IMG/VR virus record: IMGVR_UViG_3300043446_002509
Location: 1 to 29,455 of that record
Reading direction: 5' to 3' (one strand)
DNA length: 29,455 nt
Origin: a virus
The position numbers and the translations under genes are program-made. The notes beneath the pieces were generated by a model. That model was given only the letters and a program-made list of their open reading frames with translations. It ran no database searches and was not told the origin of the DNA. Each line of letters starts with the position of its first letter. The first letter of the stretch is position 1. Of the stretch, positions 7,377 to 25,491 are shown in pieces.

Positions 7377-7384
7377 TATAAATA
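7377..7384 (+). promoter_or_regulatory. Late-promoter octamer TATAAATA
   Basis: Exact T4 late consensus, two bases after tRNA-Pro and nine bases before the ATG at 7393. The spacing to the start codon is short, so the transcript would have almost no leader. Confidence 0.5.
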
Positions 7385-22936: not shown

Positions 22937-22967
22937 TTTCTGACAAAATAAGTATCAAATAATACTG

Positions 22968-22994
22968 AGGGGTGCTTGACACCCCTTTATTTTT
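22968..22994 (+). terminator. Terminator of pstS
   Basis: AGGGGTG (22968-22974) pairs perfectly with CACCCCT (22980-22986), loop CTTGA, followed by a T-rich tail TTATTTTT. Confidence 0.88.
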
Positions 22995-23004
22995 CCTATA
23001 TAAT
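22976..23004 (+). promoter_or_regulatory. Consensus sigma70 promoter of the hli genes
   Basis: TTGACA (22976-22981), 17 bases, TATAAT (22999-23004): twelve of twelve bases match. The -35 box spans the loop and the first bases of the 3' arm of the pstS terminator. An AATTGT-GTA-ACAATT dyad (23002-23016) covers the end of the -10 box and the predicted start. Confidence 0.88.
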
Positions 23005-23455: not shown

Positions 23456-23619
23456 CAGTACACGCACATCATGATATGCTGGGTCAACTTGCTATTGCCC
23501 TGCAAGATTTGGTAGAATCTGGTGCCTGGAACCACGACGATCAATTAAAGGTCTGTGTTGCAGGCACCCTACCTAAAGATAAATTTATCGTTATTCAAAA
23601 TACAAGTAAAAGAAATTAA
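23452..23619 (+). CDS. Possible small protein with GTG start, 55 residues
   Basis: GTG at 23452 overlaps the hli stop; an ATG at 23476 is an alternative. The product (MTVHAHHDMLGQLAIALQDL) is soluble, with no recognised domain and no clear ribosome site. An eight-base inverted repeat (23521-23528 with 23561-23568) and the palindrome GATAAATTTATC (23578-23589) lie inside it, so part of the segment may act as DNA or RNA signal rather than code. Confidence 0.5.
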   Translation: MTVHAHHDMLGQLAIALQDLVESGAWNHDDQLKVCVAGTLPKDKFIVIQNTSKRN

Positions 23620-23623
23620 AATT

Positions 23624-24160
23624 ATGCCTCAACTTGCTCCTGAAGAAAAATCTACAGTCCCTTCGGTGGACTTTATGTTCCGTGAAGATGGTGAGTTTGT
23701 GACTCGTTCAAGTGAAGAACTCTTCAACGGAAAAAAAGTAGTTCTGTTTGCACTTCCTGGTGCCTTTACTCCTACTTGTAGTGCTTATCAACTTCCTGGT
23801 TATGAAGAGAAGTACTATGAATTTAAAGAATCAGGCATTGATGAAATCTATTGTCTGTCTGTGAACGATGCCTTTGTGATGAATGCATGGGCTAAAGATC
23901 AAATGATCTCTAATGTCAAACTGATTCCCGATGGTAACGGTGAATTCACTAGTGCCATGGGTATGCTTGTGAAGAAGTTTAATCTTGGTTTCGCAGCTCG
24001 TTCTTGGCGTTATGCTGCTGTCATTAATGATGGTGTGATTGAACAAATTTTTATGGAAGATGGTATTGGTGATAATGTTTCGGAGGATCCCTATGAGTGG
24101 TCAACTCCAGAAAAACTTCTGGAATATGTTCGGTCTATTACTCCTGCAGTGGTTGTTTGA
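23624..24160 (+). CDS. Peroxiredoxin, Prx5 type
   Basis: 178 residues, reducing peroxides with a catalytic cysteine. LFALPGAFTPTCSAYQLPGY holds the PxxxT/SxxC motif with C52 as peroxidatic Cys; IDEIYCLSVNDAFVMNAWAK is the Prx5 segment with C77. RSWRYAAVINDGVIEQIFME completes the thioredoxin fold. A resolving cysteine is not obvious, so reduction may depend on host glutaredoxin/thioredoxin or on the phage thioredoxin at 25543. The ATG at 23624 is chosen over an upstream in-frame ATG (23555) because the protein begins there in the family. A very strong terminator follows. Confidence 0.88.
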   Translation: MPQLAPEEKSTVPSVDFMFREDGEFVTRSSEELFNGKKVVLFALPGAFTPTCSAYQLPGYEEKYYEFKESGIDEIYCLSVNDAFVMNAWAKDQMISNVKLIPDGNGEFTSAMGMLVKKFNLGFAARSWRYAAVINDGVIEQIFMEDGIGDNVSEDPYEWSTPEKLLEYVRSITPAVVV

Positions 24161-24166
24161 TTTCTC

Positions 24167-24194
24167 TCCCCCGAAAGGGGGATTTTTTTTTTTT
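24167..24194 (+). terminator. Strong terminator after peroxiredoxin gene
   Basis: TCCCCC (24167-24172), GAAA loop, GGGGGA (24177-24182), then twelve T. Perfect stem with a stable GNRA tetraloop. Confidence 0.95.
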
Positions 24195-24199
24195 GGCTC

Positions 24200-24228
24200 T
24201 TGACTCCTACGGGAAACCGTAGTATGAT
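24200..24228 (+). promoter_or_regulatory. psbA promoter with hairpin-forming spacer
   Basis: TTGACT (24200-24205), 17 bases, TATGAT (24223-24228). The spacer is a perfect inverted repeat: CTACGG (24207-24212), GAAA, CCGTAG (24217-24222). GATAAATA (24226-24233), one base off the T4 late octamer, overlaps the -10 box, so early and late use may share the site. Confidence 0.75.
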
Positions 24229-24245
24229 AAATAGGTAAACAAATG

Positions 24246-24395
24246 TTACGAGATTTTAATTTTTCGTAATATTGAATCATGGAGCAAAGGGACTAACACT
24301 CCTTACCGAGGCTATCCATGTAAAATACGCCTCTCATGTCTCAGTCTGAGGGTGACTGAGAAATAAGTACCTCCACCATTTCCCTGATGGACTTA
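24246..24395 (+). promoter_or_regulatory. Structured psbA leader RNA
   Basis: The roughly 175-base leader contains four helices: TTACGA/TCGTAA (24246-24251 with 24264-24269), GAGGC/GCCTC (24308-24312 with 24329-24333), TCTCAGTC/GACTGAGA (24339-24346 with 24354-24361), and TAAGT/ACTTA (24364-24368 with 24391-24395) enclosing CCAT/ATGG (24376-24379 with 24387-24390). A run of T precedes the start codon. Conserved psbA leader RNAs (PhotoRC motifs) are known from cyanobacteria and cyanophages; I cannot say whether this is one. Confidence 0.6.
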
Positions 24396-24411: not shown

Positions 24412-25491
24412 ATGACTGCTTCAATCGCTCAACAACGACAATCAAATACTTGGGAACAGTTCTGCAACTGGGTTACTTCAACCGATAATCGTCTTTATGT
24501 CGGTTGGTTCGGAGTCCTCATGATTCCTTGCCTGCTTGCTGCTACCATCTGTTTCATCGTTGCCTTCATTGCCGCACCTCCTGTGGACATTGATGGTATC
24601 CGCGAACCCGTTGCTGGTTCACTCATGTACGGAAACAACATCATCTCTGGTGCTGTGGTTCCTTCGTCCAACGCTATTGGACTGCACTTTTACCCCATCT
24701 GGGAAGCTGCTTCCCTAGATGAGTGGCTTTACAACGGTGGTCCTTTCCAACTTGTTGTCTTCCACTTTCTGATTGGTATCTATGCTTATATGGGCCGTGA
24801 ATGGGAACTTTCTTACCGACTCGGTATGCGTCCTTGGATTTGCGTTGCTTACAGCGCACCCGTTGCTGCTGCTAGCGCAGTGTTTCTGGTCTATCCCTTC
24901 GGTCAGGGATCCTTCTCTGATGCAATGCCTCTGGGGATTTCGGGAACTTTCAACTACATGCTTGTTTTCCAGGCAGAACACAACATTCTTATGCATCCTT
25001 TCCACATGTTGGGAGTTGCTGGTGTCTTCGGTGGTTCTCTTTTCTCTGCTATGCATGGATCTCTTGTCACCTCTTCTCTCGTCCGTGAGACGACAGAAAA
25101 TGAGTCACAGAACTATGGATACAAGTTCGGACAAGAAGAAGAGACCTACAACATTGTAGCTGCTCATGGTTACTTCGGTCGCCTGATCTTCCAATATGCT
25201 TCGTTCAACAACTCTCGTTCACTTCACTTCTTCCTCGCTGCTTGGCCTGTTGTAGGCATCTGGTTTGCTGCTCTTGGTGTCAGCACCATGGCATTCAACC
25301 TGAATGGCTTCAATTTCAATCAATCTCTGATTGATAGTCAGCATCGTGTCATCAACACTTGGGCTGATGTTCTGAATCGTGCTAACCTGGGCTTCGAGGT
25401 CATGCATGAGCGCAACGCTCATAACTTCCCTCTGGACCTTGCTAGTGTAGAAGCAACTCCCGTTGCACTCACAGCACCTGCAATCGGTTGA
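24412..25491 (+). CDS. psbA: Photosystem II D1 protein
   Basis: 359 residues, full length. D1 binds the reaction-centre pigments and the oxygen-evolving Mn4CaO5 cluster and is replaced quickly in light, so phages bring their own copy. Key residues are in register: Y161, D170, E189, H190, H198, H215, S264, H272, H332, E333, H337, D342 and the processing site after A344 (LDLA, then SVEATPVA). Position 130 is Glu, the state found in high-light D1 forms, which speeds charge separation relative to Gln. No intron interrupts the gene. The codons are rich in C-ending forms, as in highly expressed host genes. psbD is not in this window. Confidence 0.98.

Follow-up and report, generated by a model that had tools for sequence, protein, structure and literature searches.

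A probable composite early and late promoter upstream of psbA in a T4-like cyanophage, with a spacer dyad that is not conserved among relatives

The psbA gene of the viral contig analyzed here (IMG/VR record IMGVR_UViG_3300043446_002509; the window is the whole stretch of 29,455 nucleotides) is very probably served by the standard composite early/late psbA promoter of cyanomyoviruses, with a conspicuous dyad in the promoter spacer being incidental. The features described between the terminator at 24163 and the end of psbA at 25491 lie on the + strand. The promoter begins with a -35 element of the early sigma-70 type, TTGACT (24200–24205), followed by a 17-nt spacer (24206–24222) and the early -10 element TATGAT (24223–24228). 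As TTGACT-17-TATGAT, it scores 10/12 as a host sigma-70 (SigA) promoter (TTGACA-like, 16–18 nt spacer, TATAAT-like). The T4-type late promoter element GATAAATA (24226–24233), which fits the gp55 consensus NATAAATA, overlaps the -10 element and lies 179 bp from the psbA start, so that both signals share a -10 region upstream of psbA, as in the composite promoters described previously (PMC5931967). The perfect composite occurs only once in the window; with up to 3 mismatches allowed, CTACGGGAAACCGTAG has 1 copy, compared to 0.04 expected in shuffles. Predicted transcription starts are at approximately 24235 for the early and 24239 for the late signal.

Based on the consensus sequences and on the work in S-PM2d, we infer which polymerase starts where and when. 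The host sigma-70 promoter (TTGAC-N18-TATNAT, with a 17-nt spacer) would share its -10 region with the T4-type late element, such that host RNA polymerase would use the composite early and the gp55-programmed polymerase would use it late, resulting in psbA mRNA throughout infection with a nearly identical 5′ end. In this mRNA, a stem-loop would come first and the PhotoRC-II motif next. Homologues of gp55 are present in cyanomyoviruses (PMC2984593).

The window is part of a T4-like cyanophage genome; away from the genes around psbA it contains a cluster of tRNA genes and a wcaG RNA. The gene order is porin-like protein, PstS, high-light-inducible protein, peroxiredoxin, and psbA; the first three names come from reading translations, and the peroxiredoxin from phage matches over 23600–24160. 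The open reading frame of psbA (24412–25491) encodes a photosystem II D1 protein of 359 aa that is 95% identical to S-WAM1 D1. Upstream of the psbA promoter, a terminator scan and the sequence itself place an intrinsic terminator of the peroxiredoxin-like gene (CCCCCGAAAGGGGG plus a T run) at 24163–24190. The terminator behind pstS (GAGGGGTG-CTTGA-CACCCCTT-TATTTTT, 22967–23004) is fused with the hli promoter, whose -35 element TTGACA lies in the terminator loop and 3′ arm, with the T tract forming the 17-nt spacer to TATAAT. TTGACnCCYY..TTTTT-like spacers are found in 10/10 large cyanophage records, and at psbA itself in loci L013, L020, and L054. Of the other four ATAAATA late-type elements in the window, three (1874–1880, 2992–2998, and 7378–7384) begin 4–19 nt past the tRNA gene ends at 1855, 2988, and 7374, as if late units start directly behind tRNA genes. 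Close to the tRNA cluster there is also a near-composite promoter, TTGACACTTGCGAAAGATGCGGGTATGATAAACA, with one mismatch (2200–2233).

The composite is conserved. A search with the D1 protein alone yielded 80 loci in viral contigs, 56 of which carry TTGAC-N-TATNATAAATA upstream of psbA. The spacer is 17 nt long in 185 of 187 distinct psbA cores, and the -35 reads TTGAC in 179; highly divergent promoters would escape the filters applied, which are based on a single mismatch and on spacer length. The best conserved spacer column is a T at position 15, followed by G/A at position 16, corresponding to an extended -10 (TR before TATNAT); the conserved features of the spacer are thus its 17-nt length and the extended -10. 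All 119 matches to ATGATAAATAGGTAAACNAATG among viral contigs precede psbA or a PhotoRC-II leader sequence, while a search of 84,980 bacterial and archaeal species returned one match, in Paenibacillus, presumably by chance.

In these genomes, the perfect composite is also found almost exclusively at psbA. Ten large records (138–284 kb) each contain exactly one perfect TTGAC-N18-TATNATAAATA, always at psbA, among 26 TATNATAAATA sites and ~130 TTGAC-N18-TATNAT sites; these records were picked for the TATGATAAATAGG motif, which biases the count of presence and leaves that of other sites unbiased. Fourteen isolate myoviruses contain nine perfect composites at psbA (Syn9, S-RSM4, S-RIM8, DSL-LC02, S-H25, S-PM2d, P-SSM2, S-WAM1, and S-SCSM2R) and two elsewhere (S-H25 and MED4-213), and in Syn33 and MED4-213 the composite at psbA has one mismatch. 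It is absent from both podoviruses tested, P-SSP7 and S-RIP2.

These counts bear on the possibility that just one of the signals is used, the other being a by-product of the AT-rich -10 sequence. Both signals are short, and ATAAATA is expected by chance ~10 times in the window (5 are found), so a lone ATAAATA says little. However, most T4-like cyanophages keep the two together upstream of psbA, TTGAC is mostly missing at the remaining TATNATAAATA sites of the same genomes, and the S-PM2d study names both early and late signals (PMC5931967). We therefore consider use of a single signal unlikely.

The main point, that early and late signals overlap at psbA, is already known. Overlap of a sigma-70 promoter with a gp55 late site has been described for cyanomyovirus psbA (Puxty 2018; PMC5931967), where motifs 6 and 3 correspond to the same -35/-10 with the gp55 site inside the -10 motif, and where S-PM2d likewise has a hairpin in its 5′-UTR. 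Compared to that study, we add a further phage lineage, a per-genome count, and spacer length and composition over 169–187 distinct promoters. The element NATAAATA is the late motif of S-PM2, and overlapping early/late promoters have been proposed in RB49, S-PM2, and Syn9 (PMC2984593); these similarly co-locate early and late elements for continuous or "middle" expression, but they concern homologues of T4 middle genes, whereas the promoter here serves psbA. The present analysis contributes a larger scale, shows that the perfect composite is nearly restricted to psbA, and rejects the spacer hairpin. An earlier note on this DNA had proposed that a late signal overlaps the psbA -10 box; this overlap holds up, being conserved at the psbA genes of cyanomyoviruses and nearly specific to them, and it is published (PMC5931967).

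The same note described a perfect hairpin, CTACGG-GAAA-CCGTAG, formed by all but one base of the spacer between TTGACT and TATGAT, and the letters and coordinates bear this out: the spacer reads C, CTACGG (24207–24212), GAAA, and CCGTAG (24217–24222), with the dyad occupying 24207–24222. Folded as DNA, the dyad reaches -5.5 kcal/mol (z = -2.5). A perfect 6-bp stem occurs in 4 of 177 psbA spacers of 17 nt, compared to expectations of 0.17 from shuffled bases and 0.7 from re-dealt left halves, in a set that includes loci fetched for carrying the dyad. Omitting the loci fetched by hairpin patterns (L082–L084 and L245–L254) from the frequency and covariation counts leaves 169 spacers, 2 of which have the 6-bp stem and 4 of which have TACGG-N4-CCGTA. 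The dyad, which was chosen by eye, is therefore unusual as a single sequence, and it is not conserved.

That it acts as a functional hairpin finds no support among relatives. In the alignment of psbA promoters that had been suggested as a check for compensatory changes, the left arm changes without compensation in the nearest relatives, an outcome that the note had named as refuting the hairpin. Where TTGACT and the right half match the window, the left arm appears as CTACGG, CTACAG, CTATTG, CTTCTT, TTTCTG, TTACGG, or ATACGG opposite a constant CCGTAG. Syn9 shares the core and has no left arm. L051 and L087 have CTACAG, an uncompensated left-arm mismatch, and the L051 leader is identical at 60/60 positions to that of L083, the reference here, which is listed first among the loci sharing the core of the window; the leader of the window differs slightly from that of L083, for example in having TTTTAATTTTT for TTTTAATCTTT. 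In L036 and L133 (leader identity 59/60), the spacer is TTCCGTTTCTCCCCTGG, which is unpaired, and the dyad is absent. The L036 promoter, equivalent to 24200–24233 of the window, combines a window-like leader with another spacer and resembles a recombination joint at the -10.

Covariation leads to the same result. In unthinned spacers, 1.96 of 6 pairs are formed between the arms, compared to 1.66 with left halves re-dealt, but after clustering of the 169 distinct spacers the values are 1.66 versus 1.53 (p = 0.13) and 1.61 versus 1.53 (p = 0.29), and the CCGTA-class spacers alone likewise show no significant arm covariation. Because the pairing excess fades after clustering, we attribute it to relatedness. 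The promoter core folds no better than shuffles (mean z = -0.28, compared to -2.85 for the downstream leader). With arms neither kept nor compensated in relatives, the dyad was rejected as a conserved structure.

A further possibility is cruciform extrusion of the dyad, driven by negative supercoiling and modulating promoter opening. Its perfect 6-bp stem, 4-nt GAAA loop, and -5.5 kcal/mol per strand would favor this, but a stem of 6 bp that includes GC pairs offers little length for extrusion, a cruciform and the contacts that polymerase makes with the duplex spacer would be in competition, and the dyad lacks conservation. Extrusion is thus extremely improbable.

Alternatively, TACGG-N4-CCGTA between -35 and -10 could be an operator, bound by a dimeric regulator of host or phage origin that controls psbA in dyad-bearing phages. 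TACGG-N4-CCGTA recurs beside TATNATAAATA with differing flanks in several lineages, including the window, L188, S-H25, and S-SCSM2R (14 contigs in total, as well as these two isolates). The outer pair also changes from C-G to A-T within one family (the window versus L188, L251, and L253), and facing bases in CCGTA spacers pair in more than a quarter of cases. However, the dyad is lost in the nearest relatives, its arms do not covary after thinning, most relatives have the right half without the left, and in the unbiased set TACGG-N4-CCGTA is limited to 4 of the 169 psbA spacers. Spacing also argues against an operator. A 17-bp spacer is optimal without an activator, while MerR-type operators place their dyad in long spacers of 19–20 bp, compared to 17 nt here and in 185/187 cores. 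Control of psbA through an operator is accordingly quite unlikely. The narrower proposal, in which TACGG-N4-CCGTA is a genuine palindromic host-regulator operator in a minority of T4-like cyanophages, with a half-site made full, seems to us very doubtful; if true, it would add host (perhaps light) control to psbA. Taken at most, the recurrence of the dyad and the unthinned pairing excess could reflect weak selection in a minority of phages, and the spacer hairpin would merit further attention only if a protein were shown to bind it.

Under the preferred composite-promoter model, the dyad would arise when a common right half, ACCGTAG, running into the extended -10, meets a complementary left half in this lineage, and the spacer would work as an ordinary 17-bp spacer. 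CCGTAG ends 39 of 120 distinct spacers. We also considered the right half CCGTR-TATNAT as the mark of a regulon and rejected it, as it is found beyond psbA at only one locus, in three records, which is too little. That promoter with a psbA-like right half, CCGTGCTATGAT (L444:209–240, at G009:63008 and also at G002:95614 and G006:188276), stands before a 60-aa ORF.

Unlike those of the spacer dyad, the arms of a stem-loop in the leader RNA do coevolve. Located at the predicted 5′ end of the mRNA (24242–24273; 12 pairs and an 8-nt loop) and supported by folding, z-scores, and arm swaps, it starts at about +7, and nearly all relatives retain the fold while their sequences change. Since RNAalifold gave no consensus for the leader, with stem registers shifting by one base, we turned to z-scores for individual sequences and to a test in which arms are swapped. 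Across 119 leaders the mean z is -2.85, with 78% below -2, and in the clustered main class native leaders average -8.65 kcal/mol, compared to -6.07 (sd 0.45) with 3′ halves re-dealt, a native value reached by 0 of 200 shuffles. As 5′-terminal stem-loops usually protect mRNA, this one may do so as well. The stem-loop is also found in psbA leaders that seemingly lack PhotoRC-II, such as those of L028 and L009.

The leader of the window additionally contains the PhotoRC-II RNA motif (RF01717; described in PMC2864571) at 24267–24374, upstream of psbA, detected by cmscan over the full model (1–96) with 40.9 bits, above the gathering threshold of 39. The coevolving stem-loop at 24242–24273 differs from this known motif in lying mostly outside the Rfam model. 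In S-PM2d, a 36-bp inverted repeat has been reported in the psbA 5′-UTR (PMC5931967).

Phage psbA sustains photosynthesis during infection, so the manner of its continuous expression bears on ocean productivity. The composite promoter offers a simple account of how psbA may be expressed throughout infection and, because it is nearly confined to psbA, is a clean place to test the hand-over from early to late promoters.
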